Below are positions 16,596 to 62,445 of a stretch of DNA of 64,000 nt, one piece after another. Source of the DNA: Butyricicoccus sp. Marseille-Q5471 (GTDB taxonomy: Bacteria; Bacillota; Clostridia; Oscillospirales; Butyricicoccaceae); assembly GCF_951230135.1 (NCBI RefSeq), contig NZ_CATNVC010000003.1:310001-374000 (forward strand). Direction: 5' to 3'. How positions within the stretch are numbered: the first letter of the stretch is position 1; each line of letters starts with the position of its first letter. The translations under genes were made by a program, and so were the position numbers. The notes beneath the pieces are model-generated. The model worked only from the letters and a program-made list of their open reading frames with translations. It was not told the DNA's origin and made no database searches.

Positions 16596-16790
16596 TATAG
16601 GGGAAATCCGATTCCCCCTATATACGAAGTATGGTTCCTTACGAAACCACACTTCGATACCCCCAGGGCGCGGCACTGAGCCGCTGAGTCAAGGTGTATT
16701 TTCCGACAACAAGTGGCCGGAAAATACCGATTGCAAGTCGCTGCGCTCCCACAAGCGCAGCATTCCGACGAGGCAGAGCTTCGGCGGAAT
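16596..16790 (+). repeat. Multi-hairpin intergenic array A
   Basis: Starting 7 bp after the permease stop there are successive hairpins: TATAGGGG with CCCCTATA (16596-16622); CGAAGT-x-TGGTT with AACCA-x-ACTTCG (16625-16656); GTATTTTCCG with CGGAAAATAC around loop ACAACAAGTGGC (16696-16727); CTGCGC with GCGCAG (16741-16760); and a 29-nt hairpin with arms ATTCCG/CGGAAT and core GC-AGA-GC (16762-16790). The second and third match array C and the last matches array B in length and layout. No coding potential is evident. Possible roles are RNA stabilisation, attenuation or a mobile palindromic element. Confidence 0.75.
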
Positions 16791-16822
16791 GGGATTACAT
16801 ATCTGACAAAGGAGTTTCGGGA

Positions 16823-17944
16823 ATGAGCAAAATCGAACTGAAGCATATTGATAAGTTTTACGGCAAAAACCACATCCTCAAGGACGTGGAGCTGACCATT
16901 GAGGACGGCGACTTTATGACCCTTTTGGGGCCGTCCGGCTGCGGCAAGACGACGACCCTGCGCGTGGTTTCCGGTTTGGAAAAACCCCAGAACGGCACGA
17001 TTTACATGGACGGCAAGGAGATTGTCAACGCCGCCGAGGCGCACTTTGCACCCCCGTCCGAGCGCGGGCTCAACCTCGTTTTCCAGTCCTACGCGCTGTG
17101 GCCGCACATGACCGTGCGCGAAAACATCGCCTTTGGTCTGAACATTAAGAAAATGTCCAAGGAAGAGGTCAACAAGCGCGTGACCGATGCGCTCGAGCGC
17201 ATGCAGATCGGTCAGTACATTGACCGCTACCCCTCCGAGCTGTCCGGCGGCCAGCAGCAGCGCGTTGCCATCGCCCGTGCGATTGCGTCCGAACCCCGCC
17301 TGCTGCTGCTTGACGAGCCGCTGTCCAACCTTGACGCAAAGCTCCGCGTTGACATGCGCTCCGAGCTCAAGCGCCTGCACACCGAGACCGGAACGACCAT
17401 GATTTACGTTACCCACGATCAGGTCGAGGCGCTGACCATGTCCACCAAGATTGCAATTTTCAAGGAAGGCGTCATCATTCAGGTCGCGCCGCCGCTGGAA
17501 TTGTACAACAACCCCGCAAACCTGTACGTGGCCGACTTCATCGGCAACCCGCGCATCAACTTTGTCGACGTCAAGGCGACGGTCACGGCCGCCGGCATGG
17601 AAATCGACGGCGCGGCAGGCAAGCTGTCCTTCCCGAAGAGCGATATGACCCCGGGCGCGCCGACGAGCGGCACGTTCGACGCGGTGCTCGGCATTCGTCC
17701 CGAGCAGGTCACAATCAATACCGAGCGCCAGTCCCCCGACGACATCGAAGCGAAGATTTACACCTCGATGCCCGCAGGCTCGGAAACGCTGGTCACGGCT
17801 AAGATGTGCGGCGTGTCCATGGTCATTAAGGCACTGGGCATCACCCATTACAGCCCCGATCAGACGGTGTATCTGTCCATCGATCCGAAGAAAATCAATG
17901 TGTTTGACAAAAAGAGCGAGAACCTGATTAAGTACTCTGTGTGA
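16823..17944 (+). CDS. ABC importer ATPase (AfuC/PhnT type)
   Basis: A 373-residue ATP-binding subunit. Walker A is GPSGCGKTT at about residues 37-45, the signature is LSGGQQQR, Walker B is LLLLDEPLSNLDAKLR, and the switch His is in YVTHDQ. A C-terminal TOBE-like region follows (about 270-373). It energises the permease encoded upstream. The start MSKIELKH is chosen because AAAGGAG lies 9 bp before it. A longer frame upstream would read through the hairpin array and lacks a ribosome site. Confidence 0.95.
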   Translation: MSKIELKHIDKFYGKNHILKDVELTIEDGDFMTLLGPSGCGKTTTLRVVSGLEKPQNGTIYMDGKEIVNAAEAHFAPPSERGLNLVFQSYALWPHMTVRENIAFGLNIKKMSKEEVNKRVTDALERMQIGQYIDRYPSELSGGQQQRVAIARAIASEPRLLLLDEPLSNLDAKLRVDMRSELKRLHTETGTTMIYVTHDQVEALTMSTKIAIFKEGVIIQVAPPLELYNNPANLYVADFIGNPRINFVDVKATVTAAGMEIDGAAGKLSFPKSDMTPGAPTSGTFDAVLGIRPEQVTINTERQSPDDIEAKIYTSMPAGSETLVTAKMCGVSMVIKALGITHYSPDQTVYLSIDPKKINVFDKKSENLIKYSV

Positions 17945-17994
17945 TGGAATATCGCACCAAAATATGAAAAGAGAGCGAGTAAGGAGGCAAATTT

Positions 17995-19227
17995 ATGTTA
18001 CAGCACAAACGATGGTTCGCCGGCACGATGGCGGCGGTAATGGCACTCTCACTGACCGCATGCGGTGGTGGCGGCAGTGACGCGGCAGACCCCGGCGCAG
18101 CGGTCGACCCCAACCAGGAGGCAGCTTCGGGCCAAGCTGAGCTGACACCGTGGGAGCAGTCCTCCGGCATTTTCAACACCGACGAGACCGACGACGAGCT
18201 CTACGAACTGGCCAAGGCAGAGGGCAAGGTCACGCTTTACTCCATTTCCTCCCGCTGCACCAAGGTTGCAGAAGCGTTCAACGCGAAATATCCGGGCGTG
18301 GTGTGCGAACCGTTCGATATTTCAACCAATGAGCTGCTCGAAAAGGTCACCCGCGAATACGATGCAGGCCAGCACGTGGCCGACGTCGTACATATTAAGG
18401 ATCAGGACGGCTCGCTCTACAACGAGTACATTCTGGAAAAGAAGTTCTATAACTATCAGCCGGCGGCGATTATGGATCACATCGATGCGAAGCTGCGCGA
18501 GACGCAGACCCCGTTGTACATCGAGCTGACCCAGCTGTTCTACAACAGCGAAGCCAATCCCGACGGCCCTCCGGTAACGAACATTTGGGAAATCACCCAG
18601 CCGGAGTGGAAGGGACGCCTGATGATGCAGAACCCGCTGGACAACATCTCCTGGGGTTCGTGGATTACCGGCTTCTGCGTGGGCGATGCACCGGCGCAGC
18701 TCGAGGCCGCTTATAAGGAGCTGACGGGCGAAGACCTCGTGCTGTCCGACGGCTGCGAGAACGCAGGCTATGAATTCCTCAAGCGCCTGCATGACAATTC
18801 CCCGATTTTCACCTCGTCCTCGGACGAAATCGCCGAATCAGTCGGCACAAAGGGTCAAGCAAATCCGCCGATCGGCTTCTGCGCGTCCTCTAAGCTGCGC
18901 AAGAACAAGGATAACGACTGGTGCCTCGCGCCGATCAATCTGACGCCGACCACCGGTATTCCGGCCATCAACACCGTATACGTCGTCGAGGGCTGCGAGC
19001 ATCCGAACGCTGCAAAGCTGCTGATTCGCTTCATGATGGGCGGCACAGACGGCGACACCAGCGGCTATGATCCCTTTAACACGCTCGGCGGCTGGCCGGT
19101 GCGCGATGACATCGAACCCGCTGAAGGCTCTACCCCGTACAGCGAAATCAACGTTTCCGACTTTAACCCCACCGACATCTATGACAATATCAACCCTGTG
19201 CGTGATTTCTGGACGCTCTTGGGCTGA
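17995..19227 (+). CDS. ABC importer substrate-binding lipoprotein (AfuA/SBP type)
   Basis: A 410-residue extracellular binding protein. The signal peptide ends in the lipobox LTAC at about residues 18-21 followed by GGGG, so it should be lipidated and held on the outer face of the membrane. The mature protein has the class of fold used by ferric, 2-aminoethylphosphonate and sugar-phosphate binding proteins (KVTLYSISSRCTKVAEAFN near the N-terminus, then EAFNAKYPGV). It completes the importer with the permease and ATPase. The neighbouring phosphatases favour a phosphorylated ligand; iron or phosphonate cannot be excluded. Confidence 0.92.
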   Translation: MLQHKRWFAGTMAAVMALSLTACGGGGSDAADPGAAVDPNQEAASGQAELTPWEQSSGIFNTDETDDELYELAKAEGKVTLYSISSRCTKVAEAFNAKYPGVVCEPFDISTNELLEKVTREYDAGQHVADVVHIKDQDGSLYNEYILEKKFYNYQPAAIMDHIDAKLRETQTPLYIELTQLFYNSEANPDGPPVTNIWEITQPEWKGRLMMQNPLDNISWGSWITGFCVGDAPAQLEAAYKELTGEDLVLSDGCENAGYEFLKRLHDNSPIFTSSSDEIAESVGTKGQANPPIGFCASSKLRKNKDNDWCLAPINLTPTTGIPAINTVYVVEGCEHPNAAKLLIRFMMGGTDGDTSGYDPFNTLGGWPVRDDIEPAEGSTPYSEINVSDFNPTDIYDNINPVRDFWTLLG

Positions 19228-19229
19228 TT

Positions 19230-19466
19230 CGATTGAAACGTTCGTTTCAATCGAGTGTTCCGGCTTCGAACCGCGCCCTTCGGGCACAATTCTTCGCCGG
19301 TTTGTATGAAATCCGAGGCGCATGTCCCCGGATTTCATGAAAATCGCAACGCGATTTTCTATTAAAATGCGCACGGCGCAGGGTTCCAATGAAGCGGAGC
19401 TCCGTTGGAACGGATTCTATAATTGCGATGGTTGCTTTCCGGCGGGGATGACCCGCCGGGAACGAC
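19230..19466 (+). repeat. Multi-hairpin intergenic array B
   Basis: Begins 3 bp after the binding-protein stop. Hairpins: CGATTGAAACG with CGTTTCAATCG (19230-19253); a branched element closed by CCGGC/GCCGG (19260-19300); ATGAAATCCG with CGGATTTCAT (19306-19338); AAAATCGC with GCGATTTT around AAC (19340-19358); a 29-nt hairpin with arms GTTCCAA/TTGGAAC and core GC-GGA-GC (19383-19411); and CCGGCGGG with CCCGCCGGG (about 19439-19461). The 29-nt hairpin matches array A and the AAC-loop hairpin matches array C. The 294-bp gap otherwise holds no gene. Confidence 0.75.
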
Positions 19467-19521
19467 CACTTCCCCGCCCGCGCCGCCCGGCGGCGTGTGT
19501 AATGATTGGAGAAAGATAGCT

Positions 19522-19956
19522 ATGGCGCTTTTTGTTACCAAGGAGGGCAAGCGCAAAAGTCCCATCGTGATGATGTGCTTCCTGCTGTCCCTCGTCTTTG
19601 CGGGCGTGTTCGGCGCGGCCTATGCGCTGCTGGTCGGACCGATGTACCGCCATCTCTACTTTGGCAGCGACCTCATTTCAACCACGGTTCACTGCATTTT
19701 AATTGCCCTGATCGGCACCGCGGTGTGCTGCGTGTTCTTCCTGCTGCACGATAAACGCATGGTGCCGTACAGCTTTGTCGGACTTGCCGTGCTTGTGCTG
19801 ACGTTCTATGTGGCGGCGTTTCAGCTGGAACCTGCCGCACGCGCTACCATGCTGTATGTGGTTTCCCTGTATGGCCTTGCCCCGGTTTTGCTCGGCAACG
19901 CCGTTTCCTGGAGTATTTACTTGAAAATCCGCAAGCCTGCCCCGCAGGCTGACTGA
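19522..19956 (+). CDS. Small membrane protein in the importer operon
   Basis: A 144-residue protein with four hydrophobic segments at about 16-38, 50-72, 80-100 and 110-135, a basic N-terminus (TKEGKRKS) and a basic tail (KIRKPAP), compatible with four transmembrane helices. The ATG at 19522 follows GGAGAAAG. It lies between the binding-protein gene and the LacI gene, 22 bp before the latter, so it belongs to the operon. I do not recognise the family. A role next to the transporter is suggested only by position. Confidence 0.75.
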   Translation: MALFVTKEGKRKSPIVMMCFLLSLVFAGVFGAAYALLVGPMYRHLYFGSDLISTTVHCILIALIGTAVCCVFFLLHDKRMVPYSFVGLAVLVLTFYVAAFQLEPAARATMLYVVSLYGLAPVLLGNAVSWSIYLKIRKPAPQAD

Positions 19957-19978
19957 ATAGAAAGAGGAGGTCGCAGGC

Positions 19979-20977
19979 ATGAAGCGTGTGACCATCAAGG
20001 ACGTCGCCGTGCGTGCGGGCGTCAGCTTTGCGACCGTGTCGCGCGTGCTTGACGACCGCCCCGAAATCAGCGATGCAACCAAGGCGCGTGTGCGCGCCGC
20101 CTGCGCCGAAATGGGTTATGTGCCCAACAAGGCCGCACGCGGACTGGTCATGAAAAATACCAAAACGATCGGGCTCATCGTTCCCGATATTTCGAACCCT
20201 TATTTCTCCGGCTTGGGACTCTCGGTCGAGATGCGTGCGCGGGAGAACGGGTATCGTGTGCTGCTCTGCAATTCGCTGCGCGAAGAAGCGCGCGAAACCC
20301 TCGTGCTGGACAGCCTGCTTTCACAGCAGATCGATGGCCTGATTATCGCGCCCGTCTCGCCCGGCTCCCAGCGCAAGCTGGAGCACGCGCTGGGGTCTAC
20401 CCCGCGTGTGTATCTCGGCAACAACCATGACGATCAGTGCAGCTATGTTGTGGTAGACAACAAGCGCGGCGCGTATGAAGCCACGCGGTATCTGCTCTGC
20501 CTTGGCCATCGCGATATTGCCTTTCTCGGCGGCCGTGAGGGCTCGCGCACGCGGCACTTCCGTATCGCGGGTTTCCGCAAGGCGATGGAGGAAGCCGGAC
20601 TGTCCGGCCGCGAATATCCCAGCCCTGCTGAGGGCGATTCCTACCAGCACAACCACGCGCGTGCGCTGCAGCTTTTCCGCGAAGGCCCCCTTCCCCATGC
20701 GATTTTCGCCTATTCCGACCGCATTGCGCTTTCCGTGCTGCAGGCGGCCGAGGAGTGCGGCGTGCGCATTCCGGAGGATGTTTCGCTGCTCGGCTTCGAT
20801 AATATCGACTTTGCCGGCCTGCCCCGCATCAATTTGACCACCGTTTCACAGCACAAGGCCGAGCTTGGCCGCCGCGCCGTTGATCATCTGTTCGCACAGA
20901 TTGCGGGCGATATGACGCCGGTTGCCGATATCCTCGAGCCTGAGCTGATTATCCGTGACACCTGCCGCCGCCGCTGA
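19979..20977 (+). CDS. LacI-family transcription regulator 2
   Basis: A 332-residue repressor. The helix-turn-helix is at about 4-24 (TIKDVAVRAGVSFATVSRVL), with the hinge helix at about 47-57 and the effector domain after it. AGAGGAGG precedes the ATG. It is embedded in the HAD-ABC-EEP-HAD operon and resembles the regulator at 11749-12765 along its length, including GLIIPD/GLIVPD and LLGFDNI segments. Either could bind the three operators; its place inside the operon would give feedback control. Confidence 0.95.
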   Translation: MKRVTIKDVAVRAGVSFATVSRVLDDRPEISDATKARVRAACAEMGYVPNKAARGLVMKNTKTIGLIVPDISNPYFSGLGLSVEMRARENGYRVLLCNSLREEARETLVLDSLLSQQIDGLIIAPVSPGSQRKLEHALGSTPRVYLGNNHDDQCSYVVVDNKRGAYEATRYLLCLGHRDIAFLGGREGSRTRHFRIAGFRKAMEEAGLSGREYPSPAEGDSYQHNHARALQLFREGPLPHAIFAYSDRIALSVLQAAEECGVRIPEDVSLLGFDNIDFAGLPRINLTTVSQHKAELGRRAVDHLFAQIAGDMTPVADILEPELIIRDTCRRR

Positions 20978-21007
20978 CGGCGAGCCGCCAAAAGGGGGAA
21001 AACCATC

Positions 21008-22045
21008 ATGCTGACAATCGAACCGACGCTCCGGCTGCGCATGGCCGAGCGGCTCGAGCGCGAGCCGCAGTGTGCGCTGATGGATGCCATACCGCAGTTT
21101 GCGCAGGCCGAAATTTGCACCCTGTGTCCGCCGCCCGCACCGGACGGCATGCTGCGCACACTGGTATTCAACATGGAGCGCGGCGTAAACCTACAGGAAA
21201 CAATCGATTTTTTGCGATTTTGCCCCAAAATTCAACCGTTTGACCTGATTCTCGCCAACGAATTGGACGATGGCTGTAACCGCTCGGGAGGGCGCGACAC
21301 TGCGCGCGAAATCGCCGAAGCGCTCGGCCTGAACTACGTATTCGGGTTGGAATTCATCGAATTGACCGACCCAACCCACCCCAAGGGCTATCACGGCAAC
21401 GCGGTGTTTTCGCGCTACCCCATCGTCTGGGCCGAAACGCTGCGCCTGCCCGAAAGCTATAACTGGTACTTTGACCGACAGCGCCGCATCGGCGGCCGAA
21501 ACGCCGTGCTGGCAAAGCTCGACGTGGGCGGAAAACCGGTCGGCGTCGCGTCGATTCATCTGGAAAACCGCACGGACGGTGCAGGGCGGCTCGCGCAGAT
21601 GCAGGCCGTGCTGGACGAGTGCATGCGGGTATTCCCCGGTATGCCGGTCATCCTGGGCGGCGACCTGAACACCAACACCTTTGACGGACGCGACAAGCAG
21701 GAAATCGGCAAACTGGCCGAATGCCCTGCGCTGCAGCAGGAACAGATGGCGCATGTGGACGAATTTGAGCCGCTGCTGCCCCTGTGCGAGCGAGCGGGTT
21801 ACGCGTGGCGGCGGGCATCGGGCGGCGGCGAGCCGACCCGGCGCAAACCCCTGCCGGACGGCAGCACACTGCCCATGCGGCTCGACTGGATTCTGCCGCG
21901 CGGACTGATAACGATGGACAGCCGTGTGGTCTCCACCAAAACGGAGGACTGCGGCTTTGCCCCGGCGGACAGCGCACTTGCCGCCTTCACCGGCGAAGAG
22001 CTAAGCGACCACAACGCAGTTTGGGCAGCGCTCAAGCTGCGATAA
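21008..22045 (+). CDS. Endonuclease/exonuclease/phosphatase (EEP) family hydrolase
   Basis: A 345-residue protein without a signal peptide, so cytoplasmic. EEP metal and catalytic motifs are present in order: Asn in FNMERG (about 58), Glu in LANELDD (about 83), HLENRT (about 184), GGDLNTNT (about 218) and the terminal SDHNAVW (about 333). EEP enzymes cleave phosphodiesters or phosphomonoesters of nucleic acids, lipids or inositol phosphates. Position between a LacI gene and a HAD phosphatase in the importer operon suggests a small-molecule phosphoester substrate, perhaps a phosphodiester opened before the HAD step. This is an inference. Confidence 0.88.
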   Translation: MLTIEPTLRLRMAERLEREPQCALMDAIPQFAQAEICTLCPPPAPDGMLRTLVFNMERGVNLQETIDFLRFCPKIQPFDLILANELDDGCNRSGGRDTAREIAEALGLNYVFGLEFIELTDPTHPKGYHGNAVFSRYPIVWAETLRLPESYNWYFDRQRRIGGRNAVLAKLDVGGKPVGVASIHLENRTDGAGRLAQMQAVLDECMRVFPGMPVILGGDLNTNTFDGRDKQEIGKLAECPALQQEQMAHVDEFEPLLPLCERAGYAWRRASGGGEPTRRKPLPDGSTLPMRLDWILPRGLITMDSRVVSTKTEDCGFAPADSALAAFTGEELSDHNAVWAALKLR

Positions 22046-22071
22046 AAACAATAAAAGGAGGGACTTACAAC

Positions 22072-22833
22072 ATGTTCGACACCATTCTGTTCGACATGGG
22101 GGGCACCCTGGAGGACATCTGGTACAATGCTGAAACAACGGAGGCCGTCACCACGAGGCTGATGGAGACCCTGCACCGGCACGGTTTGGACACAAGCTGC
22201 AACGCCATCACCTTCTGGAACCGCGTCAATGCCGGTGTGGTGCGTTATAAAAAGTGGAGCGAGGAAAACGCGCTCGAAAAGAAGCCAGAGGAGATCTGGC
22301 CGGACTATTATCTGGCGGATTTCGCACTCGACCGAGACAAGGTTGCCGCCATTGCCGAGGAGTTGGCCGACCTGTGGGAGGTCACCTACTACCATCGCGA
22401 GCTGCGCCCCGGCGTGGCAGAGGCATTGCAGGCGCTGCAGGAGCGCGGCTATAAGCTGGGTGTGATTTCCAACACCGCGTCGCTGTATTCCGTGTTTAAC
22501 GTGCTCGAGCGGTACGGTATCCGCGATTATTTTCAGGATGTAACGCTGTCAAGCGTGACCGGCTACCGCAAGCCGCATCCCGGTATTTTTGAAGTTTCCC
22601 TGCGCCAGATGCAGTCCGAGCCGAAAAACTGCGTTTACGTGGGCGATACCCTCTCGCGCGACGTCATCGGCGCAAAGCAGGCCGGCTTTGGCGCGGCCAT
22701 TCAAATCAAATCCTTTCTGTCCCAAAAGAAGGATGTCGGCGTAGCTCCCGATTGCCAACCCGACTGTGTGGTGGACAGTATTCTGGGTGTGGTCGAGTAT
22801 CTTGACCGCGTCAATCCCAACGGCCCGGCATAA
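22072..22833 (+). CDS. HAD-family phosphatase 2
   Basis: A 253-residue HAD-IA hydrolase. Motif I is LFDMGGTLED (nucleophile Asp8), motif II is in GVISNTAS, the Lys is in GYRKPHPGIF, and motif IV is YVGDTLSRD. AAAAGGAGGG precedes the ATG at 22072. It is clearly paralogous to HAD 1 at the other end of the operon: both share the cap region layout and the GDTxSRDVxG segment. Two related phosphatases plus an EEP enzyme in one operon suggest stepwise or alternative dephosphorylation. Confidence 0.92.
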   Translation: MFDTILFDMGGTLEDIWYNAETTEAVTTRLMETLHRHGLDTSCNAITFWNRVNAGVVRYKKWSEENALEKKPEEIWPDYYLADFALDRDKVAAIAEELADLWEVTYYHRELRPGVAEALQALQERGYKLGVISNTASLYSVFNVLERYGIRDYFQDVTLSSVTGYRKPHPGIFEVSLRQMQSEPKNCVYVGDTLSRDVIGAKQAGFGAAIQIKSFLSQKKDVGVAPDCQPDCVVDSILGVVEYLDRVNPNGPA

Positions 22834-22961
22834 GCCGGGGACAGATTGTTTCGCTAAACTCTCTACTCTTTCTCCTTTTTCATCCAGTGTGAGCCGCGTC
22901 CCGAACTACGGGGCGCGGCGTCCACGTATTTCCGGGGAAATCATGAGGAGGTGAAAACCAC

Positions 22962-23660: not shown

Positions 23661-23669
23661 AACCAAAGA

Positions 23670-23701
23670 AAAGCGCCCCGTTTTCATAAACGGGGCGCTT
23701 T
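23670..23701 (+). terminator. Terminator after the MgtC-like gene
   Basis: AAGCGCCCCGTTT pairs with AAACGGGGCGCTT around a TCAT loop. The T tract is short (three T). Confidence 0.75.
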
Positions 23702-23707
23702 GTGCGC

Positions 23708-23736
23708 TTGCAGGGGCGCGGAAGCTATGCTACAAT
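23708..23736 (+). promoter_or_regulatory. Predicted promoter of the DMT transporter
   Basis: TTGCAG at 23708-23713 and TACAAT at 23731-23736 with a 17-bp spacer, 35 bp before the ATG at 23771. A GGGGGGAAA site lies between. Confidence 0.7.
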
Positions 23737-28668: not shown

Positions 28669-28697
28669 AAAAAGGCAGGACAAGTGCCTGCCTTTTT
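28669..28697 (-). terminator. Terminator after glgP, repeated hairpin family
   Basis: Perfect 11-bp stem (AAAAAGGCAGG with CCTGCCTTTTT) around loop ACAAGTG. It lies about 90 bp past the glgP stop. Between the two sits a GGGGGAC/GTCCC hairpin (about 28768-28785) starting right after the stop codon, as in array C. Confidence 0.85.
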
Positions 28698-28785
28698 CTC
28701 CTTCAATCGCGCCGCCGCAGCGCAGAAACGGGGGTGTCGAGCCGTTTCCGCGGGAGCGGTACCCATAGGAGGGACTGGGTCCCCC

Positions 28786-31158
28786 TTATCGTGCGGTGGA
28801 CTCGATCTTCCAAATATCGCTCGCGTACTCCGCAATCGCCCGATCGGACGAGAATTTGCCGCAGGTGCAGATGTTGCGCCAGCCCTTGCGCGCGAAGGCG
28901 ATTTCATCGCACGTATCGCGGTTGACGGTCAGCTTTGCGTCCAGATAGCGCCCAAAATCGAGCAGCAGGTAATACTGGTCGGGATTGTGCCACGATGCGC
29001 CCTTGAGAATCGAGTCGTACAGCTCCTGAAAATATCCCGTGCCGCCGTCGTCAAGCGTGCCGTCCACAAGCGCGTCGAGCACGCGGCGGATGCGGCTGTC
29101 CGACTGGTAGAGCGCGTTCGGGTCGTAGTCCGCCGCGCGGTCGTGAATTTCCTCAACATGTGCGCCGAAAATATAGTTGGCCTCCAGTCCCGCTTCCTCG
29201 ACAATTTCGACGTTCGCGCCGTCGAGCGTGCCGAGCGTGACCGCGCCGTTCGCCATCAGCTTCATGTTGCCGGTGCCGCTGGCTTCGGTGCCCGCGGTTG
29301 AAATCTGCTCGGACACGTCGGCCGCCGCAATGATTTGCTGCGCGGCCGTTACATTATAATTGGGCACAAACACCACGCGGATTTTTCCCGCGACGGCAGG
29401 GTCGGCCGCAATCAGGTCGGACACCGCGCCAATCAGCTTGATGATGCCCTTGGCACGCAGATAGCCGGGCGCGGATTTGCCCGCGAAAAAGAAGGTGGTC
29501 GGCGCAAAATCGGAGAGCTCGCCGCTTTTTATCTCAAAATACAGCTCCAAAATCGCCAGAATGCCCAGCAATTGGCGCTTGTACTCGTGAATGCGCTTGA
29601 TTTGCACGTCAAAAACCGTGTCGGGATCGACCTCGATGCCGTGCACGCGCCGCAGCCACGCGGCAAAGGCCTGATGGCGGGTTTTCTTTATTGAAATAAA
29701 CTCCCGCAGCACGCCTTGGTCGTTTTCAAAGGACAGCAGCTCACGCAGGGCGGACAGGTCGGTCAGCCAGCGCTCTGAGCCGAGCAGGCGGGTGAGCAGC
29801 GCCGACAATTCAGGGTTTGCGAGCGCCAGCCAGCGGCGCTGGGTGATGCCGTTGGTCTTGTTCTGGAAGCGCTCGGGGTAGACGGCGTACCAGTCGGCGA
29901 GCACGCTGCTTTTGAGGATTTCGGTGTGCAGCCGCGCGACGCCGTTGACGAAACGCCCTGCGTAAACCGCAAGATCGGCCATGTGCGCCGCGTCCCCCCG
30001 GGTAATGGACATGCGGGAAATGCGGTCGGCAGGCACGCCGCGGTCGGTCAGCTCGCGGTGCAGGCGGGCGTCAATCTGCTCGATGATGGCGTACATGCCG
30101 GGCACGGCGCGTTCAAGCAAGTCCTTCGGCCAGGTTTCGAGCGCCTCGGGCATGACGGTATGGTTGGTGTAGCAGAAGACCGCGCGAGCGATTTCAAATG
30201 CGTCGTCGAAGGAAAGCCCCTCGTTTTTCAGCAGGCGAATCAGCTCGGGAATGGCGAGCACGGGGTGCGTGTCATTGAGCTGCACGGCGTGCAGGGCGGC
30301 AAACTGCAAAAAATCTGTGCCGTGCACGCGCTTGTAGGCGCGCACCATGTCCTGCAGCGAGGCCGAGGAGAAGAAATACTCCTGCTCCAGCCGCAGAATC
30401 TTGCCCTCGTCGCTCGAGTCGTTCGGGTATAGCACCCGGGAAATATCCTCGGCACGGTTTTTGGCTTCAACCGCGCCGTCGTAATCCTGATCGTTAAAGC
30501 GCATGAAATCAAAGGGAATCAGCGGCTCCGCCTGCCACAGGCGCAGCGTGCCGATGTTGTGCGTGCCGTAGCCGATGACCGGCATATCGTACGGCACGGC
30601 GCGGACGGTGTGCCGCCCGAAGGCAACCTCAACCGCTTCCTCGTCGCAGCGCACCGACCACGGGTCGCCCCAGTGCGTCCAGTCGTCCGGCTGTTCCTTT
30701 TGAAAACCCTGCTCGATCTGCTGCTTGAACAGACCGTAGCGGTAGCGGATACCGTAGCCGTCAAGCGGGAGCGACAGGGTGGCGGCCGAGTCGAGATAGC
30801 AGGCGGCGAGCCGTCCCAAACCGCCGTTGCCGAGCGCGGCGTCCTCAACCGACTCCAGTTCCTCAAGCGAGGCGCCCTGCGCGCGCAGCAATTCTTCGAC
30901 CTCCTGCGTCATGCCAAGGCAGAGCAGGTTGTTGAAAATTGCGCGGCCGACGAGAAATTCTGCCGAAAGATAAAATGTATGGCGTGCGGCGGCGTGCGCC
31001 GCGCGGCTGGTGCGCCAATCGGCGGAAATGACGTTCATCATCGCGCGTGACAACGCCATGTGCAGCTCGTTTGGACTGGCTTCGGCGGCCGTTTTGTGAT
31101 ATTCGCGCAGCAAAAATGTGTCCAGTGCGGTTTGTACGGCCTTCATTCGTTCGGTCAT
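28786..31158 (-). CDS. glgP: Glycogen/maltodextrin phosphorylase
   Basis: A 790-residue cytoplasmic enzyme releasing glucose 1-phosphate from alpha-1,4-glucans using phosphate. The pyridoxal-phosphate lysine lies in EASGTGNMKLMANGA near residue 640, and conserved segments such as GNGGLGRLAACYLDS are present. The start MTERMKAV is used because AGGAGGAA precedes it; that site is itself inside the last codons of malQ, which overlaps this start by 4 bp. It ends the malE-F-G-malQ-glgP operon and turns imported dextrins into phosphorylated glucose. Confidence 0.97.
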   Translation of the reverse strand: MTERMKAVQTALDTFLLREYHKTAAEASPNELHMALSRAMMNVISADWRTSRAAHAAARHTFYLSAEFLVGRAIFNNLLCLGMTQEVEELLRAQGASLEELESVEDAALGNGGLGRLAACYLDSAATLSLPLDGYGIRYRYGLFKQQIEQGFQKEQPDDWTHWGDPWSVRCDEEAVEVAFGRHTVRAVPYDMPVIGYGTHNIGTLRLWQAEPLIPFDFMRFNDQDYDGAVEAKNRAEDISRVLYPNDSSDEGKILRLEQEYFFSSASLQDMVRAYKRVHGTDFLQFAALHAVQLNDTHPVLAIPELIRLLKNEGLSFDDAFEIARAVFCYTNHTVMPEALETWPKDLLERAVPGMYAIIEQIDARLHRELTDRGVPADRISRMSITRGDAAHMADLAVYAGRFVNGVARLHTEILKSSVLADWYAVYPERFQNKTNGITQRRWLALANPELSALLTRLLGSERWLTDLSALRELLSFENDQGVLREFISIKKTRHQAFAAWLRRVHGIEVDPDTVFDVQIKRIHEYKRQLLGILAILELYFEIKSGELSDFAPTTFFFAGKSAPGYLRAKGIIKLIGAVSDLIAADPAVAGKIRVVFVPNYNVTAAQQIIAAADVSEQISTAGTEASGTGNMKLMANGAVTLGTLDGANVEIVEEAGLEANYIFGAHVEEIHDRAADYDPNALYQSDSRIRRVLDALVDGTLDDGGTGYFQELYDSILKGASWHNPDQYYLLLDFGRYLDAKLTVNRDTCDEIAFARKGWRNICTCGKFSSDRAIAEYASDIWKIESTAR

Positions 31159-35867: not shown

Positions 35868-35876
35868 AATGGGGGC

Positions 35877-35905
35877 AAAAAGGCAGGCACATGTCCTGCC
35901 TTTTT
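35877..35905 (-). terminator. Terminator 1 after LacI-type regulator 3, repeated hairpin family
   Basis: Perfect 11-bp stem (AAAAAGGCAGG with CCTGCCTTTTT), identical to that at 28669-28697, with loop CACATGT (ACATGTG on the minus strand). Confidence 0.87.
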
Positions 35906-35945
35906 GAGAATTCTATGTCGCTGCGCTCTGGAGGACGGGGAAATC

Positions 35946-54353: not shown

Positions 54354-54365
54354 GTTTCTTTGCGA

Positions 54366-55328: not shown

Positions 55329-55361
55329 TAAAAACGACAGCACCGCGCGGACTGCGTCGGT
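55329..55361 (-). terminator. Terminator after murT-gatD
   Basis: ACGACAGCACCG pairs with CGGTGCTGTCGT. On the minus strand TTTTT follows. Confidence 0.9.
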
Positions 55362-55372
55362 GCTGTCGTGCT

Positions 55373-56110: not shown

Positions 56111-56121
56111 GTTATCCCTCC

Positions 56122-57492
56122 TCATTCATAAAAGGCGTGCACGCTCGTGCGTTTGCCGATTTCGCCGCGCAGATCGAACATCGCGGTGTAGGTCGGCATC
56201 AGGAAGGTCGGCGCGTCGCTCTTGCCGACCTCGTCGAGCAGCTCGCCGTATTCCGCAACGACCTCGATTTGCGCCGCATCAAAGCCCGCGTATTTCAGGC
56301 GCAGCGCCATATCGTCCCGCCGCACGCCCGAAACGAGCACGCGCGTAAACCGTGCCTGCTGTGCGGCAAGCGCTTCAAAATCCACATCCCAAATCCACGA
56401 GATGTCGGTGCCGTCCGCAAAGCGATCGTTGAGCAGAAAGGCAAGCTGACAGGCTGCCTCATCATGCGCGATGAGGTTGATGACCTGATTAAAGCCCGCC
56501 GGATTCTTGACGAGCATCATGCGCGAGGGCGAATTGCCGATCATAAAGCGCTCGGCGCGGCCGAAACCGCACTCAAACTGTGCGAGCGCCGCCACAGCGG
56601 TATCCTCGTCAATGCCGACCACGTGCGCGACGGCGGCGGCAGCGGCGGCGTTATAAATGTTGTAGCCGCCCGGCAGGTTGACGTGCACCTCGTGCACATG
56701 GCCGAACACGGTCAGCTCAATATCGGACGCATCCGCGCCGGTTTTGAGCACGCGGGTGACCGCAACCTCGGGTTTCATGCGGTGATAGCCGCATTTGGGG
56801 CAGCGGAAGCCGCCCAGATGGCCGTAGGTGACATAATCGTACTCGTATTCGGTCTTGCAGTGGATGCAGTAGGGCGCGTCGGACAGCTCGTGCGCGGTGG
56901 TCTCGTAGATCGGCACATCCACGCCGAACCAGACGATGGGATTGGGCACGTCCTCCGCGAGCGACGCGGTCAGCGAGCAGTCGGCGTTCAGGCAGAGCGT
57001 CGCGCCGGGCACGTTCGCGATGCCGGTGCGGATGCTGTTTAAGGTGTGCGTGATTTCGCCGAAGCGGTCAAGCTGGTCGCGGAAAATGTTGTTGACCACC
57101 AGACATTCGACGGGCAGATACTTGCTTGCCGTGCGGAAAGCGGCCTCATCACACTCAATCAGCGCGTGCGTATAGGCGCACCTGCCCGAGAGCGAAACGT
57201 GCTGCGCAAACACCGCGATGATGCCGGTCAGCAGATTTGCGCCCGATTTGTTGGAAAAATACGCAAAACCCGCGTCTGAGAACGCCTGTTCAATCATGCG
57301 GGAGGTCGTGGTCTTGCCGTTGGTGCCGGTCACGACGGTGACGCGCACGCCCTCGGACAGTGCGCCGAGGATGTCACGGTCGATTTTGAGCGCCAGCTTG
57401 CCGGGCAGATTGGTGCCCCCGCGTCCGAGCCTGCGCAGCACTGCGCCGGCGGCTTTGCAGACCGCGAGCGCCAATTTGGTTTTAAATTTCAT
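56122..57492 (-). CDS. murT: Lipid II isoglutaminyl synthase, ATP-dependent subunit MurT
   Basis: A 456-residue Mur-ligase-like enzyme. The ATP loop is VTGTNGKTTTSRM (about 52-64), a zinc ribbon inserted in the central domain has CIHC and CPKC (about 204 and 226), and a C-terminal DUF1727-type domain binds GatD. It converts D-Glu of lipid II to D-isoglutamine using ammonia from GatD. All key motifs are intact. Confidence 0.97.
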   Translation of the reverse strand: MKFKTKLALAVCKAAGAVLRRLGRGGTNLPGKLALKIDRDILGALSEGVRVTVVTGTNGKTTTSRMIEQAFSDAGFAYFSNKSGANLLTGIIAVFAQHVSLSGRCAYTHALIECDEAAFRTASKYLPVECLVVNNIFRDQLDRFGEITHTLNSIRTGIANVPGATLCLNADCSLTASLAEDVPNPIVWFGVDVPIYETTAHELSDAPYCIHCKTEYEYDYVTYGHLGGFRCPKCGYHRMKPEVAVTRVLKTGADASDIELTVFGHVHEVHVNLPGGYNIYNAAAAAAVAHVVGIDEDTAVAALAQFECGFGRAERFMIGNSPSRMMLVKNPAGFNQVINLIAHDEAACQLAFLLNDRFADGTDISWIWDVDFEALAAQQARFTRVLVSGVRRDDMALRLKYAGFDAAQIEVVAEYGELLDEVGKSDAPTFLMPTYTAMFDLRGEIGKRTSVHAFYE

Positions 57493-57654
57493 GTAGCATA
57501 CCCCTGTTTTCGGTAATCAGACATGGGTAGAGTATACCGCATTTTGGATGGGAATACAAGCATGCCGCACGTCGATGAGGTGCGAAACTGACATCTTGCA
57601 TAAACTTTGTGCAGTTTTTTCTACGACCTGCCGCGCCCCTGCAAAAAAATGCAC

Positions 57655-57682
57655 TTGACAAATTACGAAAACCGCTTATTCT
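57655..57682 (+). promoter_or_regulatory. Predicted promoter of the phage-tail-like gene
   Basis: TTGACA (57655-57660) and TATTCT (57677-57682) with a 16-bp spacer, 51 bp before the ATG. Confidence 0.7.
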
Positions 57683-57732
57683 ATGGCATTGCTTATCCAA
57701 ATCCCGCAGCACAACCGAAAGGAGGAATCTGC

Positions 57733-58347
57733 ATGCCCTTTACCGATTATAAAATCACAGCGTTCAGCCAGCCGGTCGCGGCCTTGCCCGATCAGCCGAA
57801 TCTGTCGCCCGAGGCGCTCAAGGCACGGTTTGACGCCTGTCCCGAGCAGCTGCGCCAGTCGCTCAACGCCGTGTGCGACGATGCGGCGCGGCTGGACGAG
57901 CGCGTCGGCGGCATCATCACGGAGACCTTTGGCGATACCATTCCGAAATCCATGCTCCGCACCGAGCTGCAGGCCGAACTGGATGCCAAGGCCGAGAAGA
58001 CCGCACTTGCCGCCGAATCCGCCGCGCGCGAGGCCCTTGCCCAAGTGGTGGCGGACAAATGCAGCGTGACGCTTGGCTTCTATGCGGGCGACGGAACGCT
58101 CCCGCGCACCATTGAGCTTGGCTTTGCAGCCAAGGCGCTGCTCGTCTGGCCCGCGAGCGGACAGGTGGCTTCGAACTACTACACATACGGTGCATTTGTG
58201 CTTGAAGACAAGCCGGCGACCCTGAACAGTGTCAATTTTCTGGAGCTGACGCAGACCGGGTTCACCATCCGCAGCGCGTCTTCCGGCTCGTACTATGCAA
58301 GACTCAATGACAGCGAGCGTACGTATTACTATCTGGCCGTCCGATAA
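57733..58347 (+). CDS. Orphan phage-tail-fibre-like protein
   Basis: A 204-residue protein without signal peptide or membrane segment. Its N-terminal part (YKITAFSQPVAALPDQPNLS then PEALKARFDACPEQLRQSLN) resembles the N-terminal module of tail-fibre or baseplate-associated proteins in Firmicutes prophages. A helical, Ala-rich middle follows (about 75-120), then a beta-rich end. AAAGGAGG precedes the ATG. It has its own promoter and terminator and sits between murT and pfkA with no other phage gene nearby. It could be a domesticated remnant or a protein of another role. Confidence 0.6.
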   Translation: MPFTDYKITAFSQPVAALPDQPNLSPEALKARFDACPEQLRQSLNAVCDDAARLDERVGGIITETFGDTIPKSMLRTELQAELDAKAEKTALAAESAAREALAQVVADKCSVTLGFYAGDGTLPRTIELGFAAKALLVWPASGQVASNYYTYGAFVLEDKPATLNSVNFLELTQTGFTIRSASSGSYYARLNDSERTYYYLAVR

Positions 58348-58354
58348 CCGAAAA

Positions 58355-58390
58355 AAAGAGCCGCCGAACTGCTTGTCCGGCGGCTCTTTT
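58355..58390. terminator. Bidirectional terminator between the tail-like gene and pfkA
   Basis: AAAAGAGCCGCCG pairs with CGGCGGCTCTTTT around a loop of about 10 nt. Genes converge here. Confidence 0.92.
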
Positions 58391-58396
58391 CCGCAG

Positions 58397-59473
58397 TCAG
58401 TCGCCCATTGACAGGCCGAGCGCCCGCGCGGTGCGGACAATCTCGCCGTCAGGCGGCACGGTTTTCAGTTTGCCCGCAACATCAGCGAGCTTGACCGGCA
58501 CAATGCCGCCGTTTTGCAGGCCGACCATGTAGCCGAACTTCTTTTTGCGGACGAGCTCGGCCGCGGCCACGCCGAACCGGGTGGTCAGCAGACGGTCGGC
58601 AGGGCAGGGCGCGCCGCCGCGCTGATAATGCCCCGGAATGGTCACGCGGATCTCCTGCCCGGTGATGGCCTGCAGCTCGGCCGCCAGACGGTAGGAGACC
58701 GAGGGATAGCTCATCGCCGCACGCTGCGCCTTGAACTCCTTTTTGCTCATTTCGGCTTCCTCGCGGCTGATTGCGCCCTCGGCCACCGCGATGATGGAAA
58801 ACCGCTTGCCGTGCTCCGCGCGGGATTCAATGGCCTCGGCGATTTTTTCGGCCGAATAGGGGATTTCCGGTATGACAATCACGTCCGCGCCCGACGAAAT
58901 GCCCGCATACAGCGTCAGCCAGCCTGCTTTGTGCCCCATTACCTCAACGATGAACACGCGCGAGTGGGAAAACGCGGTCGAGTGAATGGAGTCGATGACG
59001 GTCGTGGCGATATCGACCGCCGACTGGAAGCCGAAGGTCAAATCCGTGCCCCAGAGGTCGTTGTCAATCGTCTTGGGCAGGGTGACGACGTTCACGCCGT
59101 GCTCGCTGAGCAGGTTTGCCGTCTTGTGCGTGCCGTTGCCGCCCAGAATGACCAGCACGTCGAATTCGGCCTTTTTGCAGGTTTCAAGCATCTTGTCGAG
59201 CTTGGTCTCCTCGCTGTCCTCCGCGGCCTTTTGCATTTCCTTAAACGGCTGGCGTGAGGTGCCCAGAATGGTGCCGCCGACGGTGAGAATATCGGAAAAA
59301 TCATCCGGCTGCATTTCGTGGTAATCGCCCTCAATCAGGCCGCGGTAGCCGTCCCGGATGCCGTACAGGGTGGCCTTGTCCCCCAGCTCGTGATACAGCG
59401 TTTTCGCCACGCCGCGCAGGGCGGAATTAAGTCCCTGGCAGTCGCCGCCGCTTGTCAGCATACCGATTTTCAT
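58397..59473 (-). CDS. pfkA: 6-phosphofructokinase
   Basis: A 358-residue glycolytic kinase forming fructose 1,6-bisphosphate. TSGGDCQGLN is the phosphoryl-donor loop. The substrate loop reads PKTIDND and the fructose-6-phosphate site MGHKAGWLTL. The donor-site motif is GGNGTH: Gly at the position linked to ATP use, Asn where Escherichia coli PfkA has Asp103, and Lys instead of Gly at position 124, which is typical of pyrophosphate enzymes. The donor is therefore uncertain between ATP and pyrophosphate. The start follows AAGGAGG. Confidence 0.94.
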   Translation of the reverse strand: MKIGMLTSGGDCQGLNSALRGVAKTLYHELGDKATLYGIRDGYRGLIEGDYHEMQPDDFSDILTVGGTILGTSRQPFKEMQKAAEDSEETKLDKMLETCKKAEFDVLVILGGNGTHKTANLLSEHGVNVVTLPKTIDNDLWGTDLTFGFQSAVDIATTVIDSIHSTAFSHSRVFIVEVMGHKAGWLTLYAGISSGADVIVIPEIPYSAEKIAEAIESRAEHGKRFSIIAVAEGAISREEAEMSKKEFKAQRAAMSYPSVSYRLAAELQAITGQEIRVTIPGHYQRGGAPCPADRLLTTRFGVAAAELVRKKKFGYMVGLQNGGIVPVKLADVAGKLKTVPPDGEIVRTARALGLSMGD

Positions 59474-59567
59474 TCGGCTCAGCCTCCTTCTATAAAGTTA
59501 GTATCCTTATTTTACGCTTCTTTGACCGGATTGGAAAGTCAAATCGCCGTAAAATCCAGTTTTCTCC

Positions 59568-59613
59568 TGAAATGCACCGATTATGTCTTCTGACGGGAAA
59601 AACGTGCATTTCA
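59568..59613. other. Inverted repeat in the pfkA-pflB gap
   Basis: TGAAATGCAC (59568-59577) and GTGCATTTCA (59604-59613) are perfect arms around a 26-nt centre, followed on the plus strand by TCGGTATTTTTTTG. It may be a regulator site between the two glycolytic/fermentative genes or a terminator-like stem. Confidence 0.5.
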
Positions 59614-59640
59614 TCGGTATTTTTTTGTGCGGAAAAGCAA

Positions 59641-59669
59641 TTGCGCAGGGACATGCACTGTGTTATTCT
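59641..59669 (+). promoter_or_regulatory. Predicted promoter of the pflB riboswitch transcript
   Basis: TTGCGC (59641-59646) and TATTCT (59664-59669), spacer 17 bp, about 15 bp before the aptamer. Confidence 0.65.
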
Positions 59670-59682
59670 ATGGATAGACAAA

Positions 59683-59787
59683 TTCCCTGCAACTGACGGA
59701 CAAGATGGGCAACCATCGGGGAGCAGGGGTTCCGTAATAGCCGACCGTCTGGGCAGTGTCGCAAGAAAAGCGATGCCGCCCTTTTTT
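59683..59787 (+). promoter_or_regulatory. ZTP (pfl) riboswitch with overlapping terminator, upstream of pflB
   Basis: Aptamer features: ACTGACGG (59692-59699) with GACGG pairing to CCGTC (59745-59749); hairpin GATGG-GCAA-CCATC (59704-59717) followed by GGGGAGC; and the conserved GCCGACCGTCTGGGCA (59740-59755). The terminator is formed by GGGCAGTGTCGC (59751-59762) and GCGATGCCGCCC (59770-59781), then TTTTTTG. Its 5' arm reuses the aptamer's GGGC, so ZTP/ZMP binding should favour read-through into pflB, an ON switch. Confidence 0.93.
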
Positions 59788-59840
59788 GTTACCCTGATAA
59801 AGCGAAAAAGGGCGGGCATACAGAGAAAGAGGAGTATACT

Positions 59841-62069
59841 ATGAACGCTTGGAACACCTTTGTACCCGGCTCTTGGCAGGATGAAGTGGACGTCCGCGAT
59901 TTTATTCAGAAGAACTACACCCCCTATGACGGCGACGCGGATTTTCTCGCGAAGCCGACCGCGCGCACCGAAAGCATGCGTGATAAATTCGAGGGTCTGC
60001 TCGCCGAGGAGCGCGAAAAGGACGGCGTGCGTAAGATCGACACCGACACCGTCATTACCATCACCGCCTTCGGCCCCGGCTATCTCGATCAGGAAAATGA
60101 GGTCATCGTCGGTTTGCAGACGGACGAGCCGCTCAAGCGTGCCTGCAATCCCTTCGGCGGCATGCGCATGGTGCGCGACGCGTGCAAAGCGTATGGCTAC
60201 GAGGTCTCGCCCGAGATTGAAAAGAATTTCACCTACCACAAGACGCATAACGACGGCGTGTTCGCGGGCTACACCAAGGACGTGCGCGAGGCGCGTCACG
60301 TCGGCCTGCTGACCGGCCTGCCCGACGCGTACGGCCGCGGCCGCATCATCGGCGACTACCGCCGCGTCGCCCTCTACGGCGTTGACCGTCTGATTGCCCT
60401 GAAGCAGCACGACAAGGACGCGCTGGGCGATGTGCCGACCACCGAAACCGAAATCCGCTGTGCCGAGGAGCTGACCGATCAGATCAAGGCACTGAAGGAC
60501 ATGGTGAAAATGGCCGCTTCCTACGGCTTTGATATTTCCCGTCCCGCCGAAACCGCGAAGGAAGCCGTGCAATGGGTGTATTTCGCCTACCTTGCGGGCA
60601 TTAAGGAGCAGAACGGCGCGGCGATGAGCCTTGGCCGTGTGTCCACCTTCCTCGATATCTATTTTGAGCGCGATTTGGCTGCCGGCGTGCTGACCGAGAC
60701 CGAAGCCCAGGAAATCATGGACGATTTCGTGCTGCATCTGCGTATGGCGCGTCACCTGCGCACGCCGGAGTACAACGAGCTGTTCGGCGGCGACCCGATG
60801 TGGATCACCGAGGCCATCGGCGGCATCGGCGAGGACGGCCGTCACATGGTCACCAAGAACTGCTTCCGTATGCTGCACACGCTGTACAACCTCAATCCCT
60901 CGGCCGAGCCCAATCTGACCGTATTGTGGAGCGAGCAGCTGCCCGAAAACTGGAAGCGCTTCATCGCTAAGGTTTCGATTGACACCGATGCGCTTCAGTA
61001 CGAAAACGACGACGTGATGCGCCCGTACTACGGCGACGATTACGCCATCGCCTGCTGCGTCTCCGCGATGCGCGTGGGCAAGGACATGCAGTTCTTCGGT
61101 GCGCGCGCCAACATTGCAAAGCTCGTCATGATGGCAATTAACGGCGGCCGCGACGGCATCAAGCTCGAGCAGGTCGGCCCTGAAATGCCCGTATACGAGG
61201 GCGAATACCTCGATTATGACGAGGTCTGCCGCCGCATTGACTTCTACCGTCCGTGGCTGGCCAAGACCTACGTTTCCGCGATGAACACCATCCACTATAT
61301 GCACGACAAGTACGCCTACGAAAAGAGCCAGATGGCGCTGCACGACACCGACGTCCGCCGCCTGATGGCGTTCGGCATTGCGGGCATGAGCTGCATGGCC
61401 GATTCGCTCTCCGCGATTAAGTATGCCAAGGTCAAGTGCATCCGTGACGCGGAGACCGGCATCATCGTCGATTTTGAGACCGAGGGAGAGTTCCCGAAGT
61501 TCGGCAACGACGATGACCGCGTTGATTCTATTGCCTGCGAGCAGGTTCAAGCATTCTATCAGGCGCTGACGCAGTTCCCGCTGTACCGCGGCGCGATTCA
61601 CACGCTGTCCATCCTGACGATCACCTCGAACGTCATGTACGGTAAAAAGACCGGCAACACCCCCGACGGCCGCCGCCGCGGCGAGCCGCTTGCTCCCGGC
61701 GCAAATCCGATGTCGGGCCGCGATACCTCGGGTGCGCTGGCGTCTCTCAACTCGGTTGCCAAGCTCAGCTATGACTACTGCCGCGACGGCATTTCCAACA
61801 CCTTCTCGATCACGCCGGGCGCACTCGGCAAGTCGGAGGAGGAGCGCGTGACCAATCTGGTGAACATTCTGGGCGGTTATTTCGGCCAGAACGCGCACCA
61901 TCTGAATGTCAACGTCCTCAACCGTGAAACGCTGATGGCGGCCTATGAGCATCCGGAGCAGTACCCCAACCTGACCATCCGTGTGTCGGGCTACGCGGTC
62001 AACTTCTACAAGCTCAGCCGCGAGCAGCAGCGCGAGGTTATTTCGCGCACCTTCCACGAGGCGATATAA
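59841..62069 (+). CDS. pflB: Pyruvate formate-lyase
   Basis: A 742-residue glycyl-radical enzyme converting pyruvate and CoA to acetyl-CoA and formate. Active-site cysteines are Cys405-Cys406 in [11 protein letters not shown] and the radical glycine is Gly717 in [15 protein letters not shown] precedes the ATG. The ZTP riboswitch upstream ties formate supply to one-carbon and purine status. The activase gene lies 434 bp downstream, after hairpin array C. Confidence 0.98.
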
Positions 62070-62074
62070 GCTCC

Positions 62075-62445
62075 AAGGGGGACGCTGTCCCCCTTAGATA
62101 CGAAAAAAGTTCCGATGAAACTTTTTTCGATAACCCACTCGCCTTTTCACCGAAAAGGCGGCCGCGCCGCCGCGGTGCGGGCAGTGGTATGTTTCCGATC
62201 ACAAGTGACCGGAAACATCAATTTGACCCGCGGCAACGCCGCGGAAATGGGATGTGCACCCTGAGCACATGCAGGCGCGTCGCGCCGCTCAGCTGCGAAA
62301 AGCCGTTCGTCCTGCACCACCGAAATGCGAAAAGGGTGCTTGCCTCTCGACCGAAAACGGCGGCACGCAGAGAAAACAGGTATTACGCTGCGGAAAGCAG
62401 AGGATTCAAAAGGGGAGGAAAACCGCAGGTTGTCCTCCCTTTTTG
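62075..62445 (+). repeat. Multi-hairpin intergenic array C
   Basis: Starts 5 bp after the pflB stop. Hairpins: AAGGGGGAC/GTCCCCCTT (62075-62095); CGAAAAAAGTT/AACTTTTTTCG (62101-62129); CGCCTTTTC/GAAAAGGCG (62140-62160); ATGTTTCCG/CGGAAACAT around loop ATCACAAGTGAC (62189-62218); CCGCGGC/GCCGCGG around AAC (62228-62244). A terminator-like AAAGGGGAGGA/TCCTCCCTTT (about 62409-62442) ends it. The first, second and fourth match array A and the AAC-loop hairpin matches array B. The 434-bp gap has no evident gene. Confidence 0.75.

Follow-up and report, generated by a model that had tools for sequence, protein, structure and literature searches.

Intra-operon hairpin arrays of Agathobaculum as probable trimmed descendants of IS1182-type miniature inverted-repeat transposable elements

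New insertions of IS1272, an insertion sequence (IS) of the IS1182 family, hit stem-loops and replace them, as reported by Wan and co-workers (PMC5678879), who also draw a possible pathway that duplicates the whole stem-loop at both ends. Here, we analyze three arrays of consecutive hairpins, A (16596–16790, + strand), B (19229–19466, + strand), and C (starting at 62073, + strand), in a 64,000-nucleotide (nt) stretch of Butyricicoccus sp. Marseille-Q5471 (contig NZ_CATNVC010000003.1), hereafter the window, and compare them with relatives in other genomes, including seven Agathobaculum congeners. The three arrays are probably members, trimmed in place, of two related Agathobaculum families that derive from IS1182-type miniature inverted-repeat transposable elements (MITEs).

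Array families and their complete copies

Nucleotide searches within the window's genome returned partial relatives of A, B, and C elsewhere, and folding showed a modular order. A-type arrays run from a G-run hairpin (M1) through M2 (consensus ATAC-n-GTTCC..GAAAC-n'-GATA) and a GC-rich hairpin (M3) to M4, mostly with A on the 5' side and T on the 3' side, whose loop is, for example, GCGCATGT or GCAAAGC; more hairpins then follow. B-type arrays start with a different hairpin pair, followed by M4-like and M5-like hairpins. By eye, whole M4 stems have been swapped for other types found elsewhere in the family. Literature searches, with subscription journals mostly outside their coverage, found no description of this array family.

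An earlier note on this DNA, made from the letters alone, had described three related arrays of strong hairpins close behind stop codons, and most of that description held. Array A is separated by 6 nt from its stop codon (16587–16589), B begins 1 nt past the stop codon at 19225–19227, and C begins a few nt beyond the pflB stop codon (62067–62069). All three fold better than every shuffle (z of −4.9, −5.3, and −5.3 for A, B, and C, with 200, 200, and 100 shuffles), and the window holds 23 perfect inverted repeats with arms of at least 8 nt versus 5–6 in three mononucleotide shuffles. The hairpins said to be common to A and C (the G-run hairpin, ATACGAA..GTTCC..GAAAC..TTCGATA, and the hairpin with loop ACAAGTG) and the GCAACGC hairpin common to B and C were recognized again by eye, and a hand recount of the 29-nt hairpin of A (16762–16790) and B (19383–19411) gave 20 of 29 identical bases. 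The arrays are indeed related but fall into two families: A and C score 90.1 and 64.1 bits with the A-type model (54 copies), and B, whose later hairpins are similar, scores 128.5 bits with the B-type model (nine copies); these scores are not independent, because the three arrays are in those alignments. Array C had been drawn too long, as its supposed last hairpin (~62404–62445), upstream of pflA, lies outside the array family: hairpins like it are found, by eye, ahead of pflA in many array-free congeners. The claim of a structured element family without named kin stood as far as the family is real and the arrays have no match in an Rfam scan of the window at gathering score, which returned only three tRNAs and a ZMP/ZTP riboswitch; an Rfam scan of 11 loci by expectation value (E) gave sub-threshold matches only, apart from a T-box elsewhere in L004. 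Not supported in that form is the reading as simply a structured RNA family: complete relatives resemble mobile DNA of the MITE kind.

Complete B copies carry terminal inverted repeats, TSAGnCTGTCGAAAAA, and no transposase gene. Many B copies of one genome, G221, have the hairpin TGAGACTGTCGAAAAA..TTTTTCGACAGTCTC in front and CTTTTTCGACAGACTGA behind, which are mutually inverted repeats. The left repeat occurs in 13 of 20 G221 copies versus 0 of 390 control windows, the right repeat, sought with a looser pattern, in 19 of 20 versus 23 of 390, and both together in 12 of 20. Outside these ends, one hairpin, mostly a terminator by eye, is present on both sides of the element. Local alignment of the flanks detected direct repeats (score ≥14) in 16 of the 32 B copies tested, 11 of them among the 20 from G221, and in none of 992 cross pairs, a rate that applies to these 32, the better-scoring of 46; with a poorer choice of flank, all 46 copies gave repeats in 12 cases versus 2 of 2070 controls. 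The B elements fit the stem-loop-duplicating pathway drawn in PMC5678879. For the arrays of the window, the left terminal repeat was not found before A, B, or C, and no direct repeat was found in the flanks of B. At locus L428, a B element with the left terminal repeat abuts, by eye, a hairpin like the M1 of A-type arrays, as if this were its target; the duplicated hairpin was not found on the opposite side.

The ends of these elements may point to an IS1182-type parent. A model of the IS1182 transposase has matches in 9 of 17 genomes, above its cut-off in three. One IS1182-family fragment in the genus (L452) has CAGCCTGTCGAAAAAG directly behind a terminator hairpin, ~90 nt before the transposase match, and a second (L446) has the end TTTCTCGACAGGCTGA directly before a 24-nt palindrome; both ends are closely similar to those of B elements. 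Among four longer IS1182 copies, related ends are found in L440 (GGGACTGTCGCACTA) and L441 (GGGGCTGTTGCAAAAC).

Similar ends can be traced by eye in A-type copies of Angelakisella, which have a similar hairpin (GAGCGTGTCGAAAAA..) ahead of M1 and a similar right end, clearest in L073, and two of these copies (L135) have copies of one terminator on both sides. An exact-seed search for direct repeats gave 4 hits in 100, namely L135 twice, L017, and L104 (a slicing artefact), with controls of 0, 6, and 0, the 6 probably reflecting the same artefact. Bare arrays begin, by eye, where the left-end hairpin of complete copies ends. In L073 (Angelakisella massiliensis), the A-type unit is found in tandem, with four M1–M2 units and a left-end-like hairpin between units. 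In three other loci, a short hairpin, AAGGTGNATYGCCCCGCAGGGGCAAGAGA..CCCTGGGG, is nested by eye at different places (L078 and L108, within M3; L168, within M4) and is perhaps another small mobile hairpin that targets loops.

Put together, a complete element opens with a hairpin that has the left terminal repeat TGAGACTGTCGAAAAA as its outer arm; the array follows, and the right repeat CTTTTTCGACAGACTGA closes it. A transposase of the IS1182 family, supplied in trans, would target a stem-loop, usually a transcription terminator. Joining would take place on both strands at the foot of this stem-loop, so that the element ends up with a full copy of the hairpin at either end. Trimming would then yield a bare array with neither terminal repeats nor a duplicated hairpin, behind a stop codon between co-directional genes. 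Such bare arrays most likely persist since a tight chain of hairpins is tolerated in a polycistronic transcript, where they may act as an attenuator or as a protector of mRNA ends.

Distribution, placement, and orthologous sites

In the window's genome, a covariance model picks out no fewer than 10 A-type copies (E ≤1e-11); B-type copies number at least four, and a fifth B-type match overlaps an A-type copy. The seven congeners have 4–23 A-type matches each and 2–60 B-type matches; the latter occur in 12 of 20 chosen genomes overall, and the weak ones include A-type copies. In an order-wide sample of 295 genomes from 149 genera, A-type arrays were found in 15 genomes and 5 genera, including all six genomes sampled from the genus. 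No more than 150 candidates were scored per genome, and no more than 13 in the sample of 295; copy numbers are therefore lower bounds, and every copy count is to be read either as such or as including weak matches. A pattern scan of named genomes returned 110 stretches, of which 82 rows pass a pairing filter, counting one chance match inside a called gene (L157). These are mostly from Agathobaculum, with others in Angelakisella massiliensis, Flavonifractor, Pseudoflavonifractor, and Butyricicoccus faecihominis, and in assemblies labelled Eubacteriales, Oscillospiraceae, Clostridium, or uncultured bacterium. Viral contigs contributed five stretches, two of which, on one contig, hold well-paired copies.

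A-type copies are strongly oriented with respect to their neighbors, as judged with gene calls from our own simple codon-score caller. In the pattern-scan set of 82 rows, sense genes flank the array on both sides in 64. The gap is convergent in 2, both from Angelakisella, no gene was called on one side in 14, and the remaining 2 overlap with a gene call. In the seven congeners (83 hits, 82 places analyzed, 81 after dropping a mirror hit), 73 places are co-directional and sense, 7 antisense, one of them the mirror hit, 1 convergent, and 1 divergent. For bare copies, this amounts to 73 sense and 6 antisense (p 1e-15), and 79 of 81 copies lie in co-directional gaps versus 143 of 192 background gaps (p 9e-7), both p values being overstated because copies at orthologous sites are not independent; the background consists of array-free gaps of 60–800 nt in the pattern-scan loci, which are different stretches from the congener set. 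M1 starts no more than ~9 nt past the stop codon, or overlaps it, in 53 of the 74 copies with an upstream sense gene, and in nine copies the TAG of M1's TATAG itself serves as the stop codon. At least one of the 10 A-type copies of the window's genome (L192) lies in a convergent gap, and L191 is possibly another.

A run of at least four T in or after the 3' arm of M4 makes 48 of 81 A-type copies resemble intrinsic terminators, and these copies may cause partial termination. No T run of four was found after M4 in the sequences of A, B, and C, where termination at M4 is therefore not expected; these three would better fit protection of the upstream message or a harmless structured spacer.

Arrays recur at orthologous gene pairs in several species. 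The genes named here that lie outside the window (rpmJ, rpsM, grpE, dnaK, infB, rbfA, nusG, rplK, dnaX) are presumably what these names say, as we recognized their proteins. Among 30 rpmJ–rpsM loci of the bacterial family, all seven from the genus have an array. It is of A-type in six, with 53.9 to 112.6 bits and evident decay in the lowest-scoring, and of B-type in the seventh (131.5 bits); another genus has one A-type match (L237, 47.6 bits), and in the other 22 loci no array was found, the gap being, L238 aside, 22–34 nt or filled with other hairpins. Antisense copies occur at infB–rbfA (L331) and nusG–rplK (L324), in one genome each, and sense copies at the same pairs in other genomes. The pflB–pflA gap, the site of C, has a model match in 1 of 22 genus loci (a pflB-like gene precedes pflA in 22 of 23); possible M1 remnants were seen by eye in L469, L476, and L482, and because such remnants may persist, loss elsewhere is as possible as a late gain of C.

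Separately, where the rpmJ–rpsM gap is long in genera of the family, a conserved leader can be seen by eye before rpsM (L228–L257), with ..GACAAGCAC..GCGCTGCAGGGGCGGAGGCGGCCCCTATACTG.. and variants, which is possibly an S4-binding leader of the alpha operon; a sub-threshold Alpha_RBS match lies at L035:1259–1369 (−), with 27.3 bits versus a gathering score of 38.

Paired changes and the origin of the arrays

The covariance-model check proposed by the earlier note yielded many intergenic matches with a fixed module order, and strong covariation, so that neither outcome named there as a refutation occurred. In an alignment of 54 A-type copies (from 63 references chosen after 16 named loci, with copies more than 95% alike removed and a third subtype of nine copies excluded), 96.0% of cells pair versus 81.3% in shuffles, 221 cells have changed on both sides versus 60.5 ± 6.0, and the covariation score is 0.372 versus 0.114 shuffled and at most 0.069 with the 3' partner slid. 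The note had gone on to say that paired changes imply selection on structure; the covariation is there, but paired changes alone do not imply selection. The signal is far beyond chance, yet by itself it is no proof of an RNA role, because repeat copies are non-independent and processes acting on palindromic DNA can also make paired changes. Such processes, namely template switching in palindromes and exchange of whole hairpins, are possibly, though less likely than not, the source of the paired changes in place of structural selection. Family stems are nearly all Watson–Crick (3513 pairs and 49 mismatches), M2 stems at orthologous gene pairs show 68 double Watson–Crick changes versus 18 single and 5 other double changes, and the wholesale swapping of M4 stems points the same way. 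Stem mismatches, however, are mostly transitions (87 of 119), as expected under stepwise compensation, and the comparison of G–U with A–C pairs (14 versus 21 in a first count, 44 versus 43 in a relaxed one) has little power, terminator-like hairpins from the pattern-scan loci giving 21 versus 15 as a control. With G–U no commoner than A–C in the relaxed count, stem pairing does not point to RNA in particular.

Two further readings give RNA a larger part. It is somewhat unlikely, though worth stating, that the bare arrays have been domesticated as intercistronic RNA, as mobile hairpin chains held in sense orientation at a constant distance from the preceding stop codon, which let neighboring genes be expressed independently and whose stems drift while staying paired; A-type and B-type arrays, both found at rpmJ–rpsM, would then be interchangeable parts for one slot. 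We consider it unlikely that the arrays were host-encoded from the outset, as a vertically inherited, cis-acting operon RNA with an attenuating, processing, or stabilizing role, and that the MITE form captured them later. Such an RNA would lead one to expect the excess of sense copies (73 of 79), the position after stop codons in co-directional gaps, the recurrence at orthologous pairs, including the seven genus loci read at rpmJ–rpsM, the covariation, and the frequent T run of M4. It accounts poorly for the transposon-like form of complete B copies, for the substitution of one array type for the other at rpmJ–rpsM, for the antisense copies at infB–rbfA and nusG–rplK, for the model match in only 1 of 22 pflB–pflA gaps, for the missing T run in A, B, and C, and, as far as that low-powered count goes, for the lack of a preference for G–U.

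Repetitive extragenic palindromic (REP) sequences, mobilized by a Y1 transposase of the REP-associated tyrosine transposase (RAYT) type, resemble the arrays in being short repeated hairpins with a stem mismatch (C·A in M2) and a conserved tetranucleotide ahead, a combination known from REPs. Such an origin is at odds with the terminal repeats and the duplicated hairpins, and we regard it as highly improbable; a search for Y1_Tnp (PF01797) at E 0.001 found no match in the window's genome, and the 9 of 26 searched genomes that do match include some with and some without arrays. Integron attC sites, which hairpins behind stop codons bring to mind, were set aside since the flanking genes look housekeeping, no search aimed at attC having been made.

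Descent from IS1182-type MITEs nonetheless has a number of observations to contend with. The L452 and L446 fragments are far below the family cut-off (~67 versus 270 bits), the longer IS1182 copies L449 and L444 have unrelated ends, none of the 17 genomes searched yielded an intact IS bearing the ends of the MITE, and the window's genome has one weak IS1182 match. Half of the 32 tested B copies have no direct repeat, none was found in the 14 weaker copies, for which the poorer flank was the one used and no score reached 13, and the duplicated hairpin is present in only one of the four B copies of the window's genome. For A-type copies of the seven congeners, a flanking direct repeat or terminal repeat was found in 0 of 81, so that for A and C a derivation from complete elements would rest on the Angelakisella copies and on the modules of B. 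Insertion into terminators does not predict a strict position behind stop codons within operons, an array in seven of seven genus loci at rpmJ–rpsM is more than idle debris would suggest, and the p values for orientation carry less weight than their size implies. These points all count against MITE descent, which we still hold to be the probable origin.

The window in detail and known systems

The modules of the arrays are listed below, together with a fourth, decayed A-type array on the minus strand, to which the models give weak matches only (E 0.012 for R1 and 0.019 for R2).

Hairpin modules of arrays A, B, and C and of a decayed fourth array in the window
Array	Feature	Position	Strand	Basis
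A	M1, G-run hairpin TATAGGGG..CCCCTATA	16596..16622	+	sequence, folding, A-type model
A	M2, hairpin ATACGAA-n-GTTCC..GAAAC-n'-TTCGATA	16622..16659	+	
A	M3, GC-rich hairpin CCCCC..GCGGC..GCCGC..GGTG, outer part weakly paired in this copy	16660..16697	+	
A	M4, hairpin with loop ACAAGTG, 3' side without T run	16696..16727	+	
A	two more hairpins: 16740–16761, perfect inverted repeat; 16762–16790, resembling 19383–19411 of B	16740..16790	+	
B	H1, TCGATTGAAA..TTTCAATCGA	19229..19254	+	sequence, folding, B-type model
B	H2, CCGGC..CGCGCCCTTCGGGC..GCCGG	19260..19300	+	folding, B-type model
B	M4-type hairpin ATGAAATCCGAGGCGCATGTCCCCGGATTTCAT	19306..19340	+	folding, B-type model
B	M5, GAAAATCGCAACGCGATTTTC	19339..19359	+	inverted-repeat scan
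B	remaining hairpins: 19383–19411 and 19439–19459	19383..19466	+	folding, inverted repeats
C	M1 hairpin, core 62075–62095	62073..62097	+	folding, A-type model
C	M2 hairpin	62098..62132	+	A-type model
C	M3 region, hairpin 62140–62160 and following	62133..62186	+	folding, A-type model
C	M4, TGTTTCCG..ACAAGTG..CGGAAACA	62187..62219	+	folding
C	hairpin CCGCGGCAACGCCGCGG	62226..62246	+	folding
fourth	decayed A-type array: M1 remnant overlapping stop codon 28786–28788, M2 damaged, M4 hairpin 28669–28697 intact	28669..28793	−	

Array A lies between an ATP-binding cassette (ABC) permease gene (14754–16589, with two BPD_transp_1 stretches) and an ABC ATPase gene. The gene before B (17995–19227) has no Pfam match and, lying within the ABC operon, may encode a binding protein. 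Array C sits between pflB and a downstream pflA-type radical S-adenosylmethionine gene, and the ZMP/ZTP riboswitch (pfl motif) occupies 59679–59761, just upstream of pflB. Lone M4-like hairpins of the type CAAAAAGTCAGG..CCTGACTTTTTG, with a loop near that of M4, are found at 2663–2693 and 35876–35906; they stand behind gene ends and look like terminators.

The arrays are best filed as a new IS1182-type MITE family with trimmed intra-operon descendants. Read this way, they would form a natural series that leads from a transposon-like element attacking terminators to trimmed, structured spacers in housekeeping operons, and if the bare copies act in RNA, a transposon would have given the genus a ready-made part for tuning its operons. 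They also carry a warning, in that an intergenic repeat may covary strongly without being a regulatory RNA.

Several described systems share some of these features. Like REP/RAYT repeats, the arrays offer many short hairpins at gene ends; unlike them, they are longer and compound, have other ends, and occur in a genome with no Y1 transposase match. Similarly, Chunjie, QMITE2, and the pneumococcal BOX, RUP, and SPRITE elements (PMC10969869) are short, repeated, intergenic, and foldable as RNA, with trimmed copies that have lost their ends and cases of one element inserted into another. The present arrays differ from these in forming a fixed-order chain of hypervariable, self-complementary stems behind stop codons, and in a target duplication that comprises a whole hairpin. 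In targets and ends, the likeness is to IS1272 and the IS1182 family (PMC5678879): the targets are stem-loops of unrelated sequence, and some IS1182 copies, in the genus and more widely in the bacterial family, bear related terminal repeats. The B elements have no transposase gene and duplicate the hairpin, whereas new IS1272 copies replace the stem-loop with no duplication; the sixteen duplicated sites described here support a stem-loop-duplicating pathway that has so far been drawn only as a possibility for IS1272.

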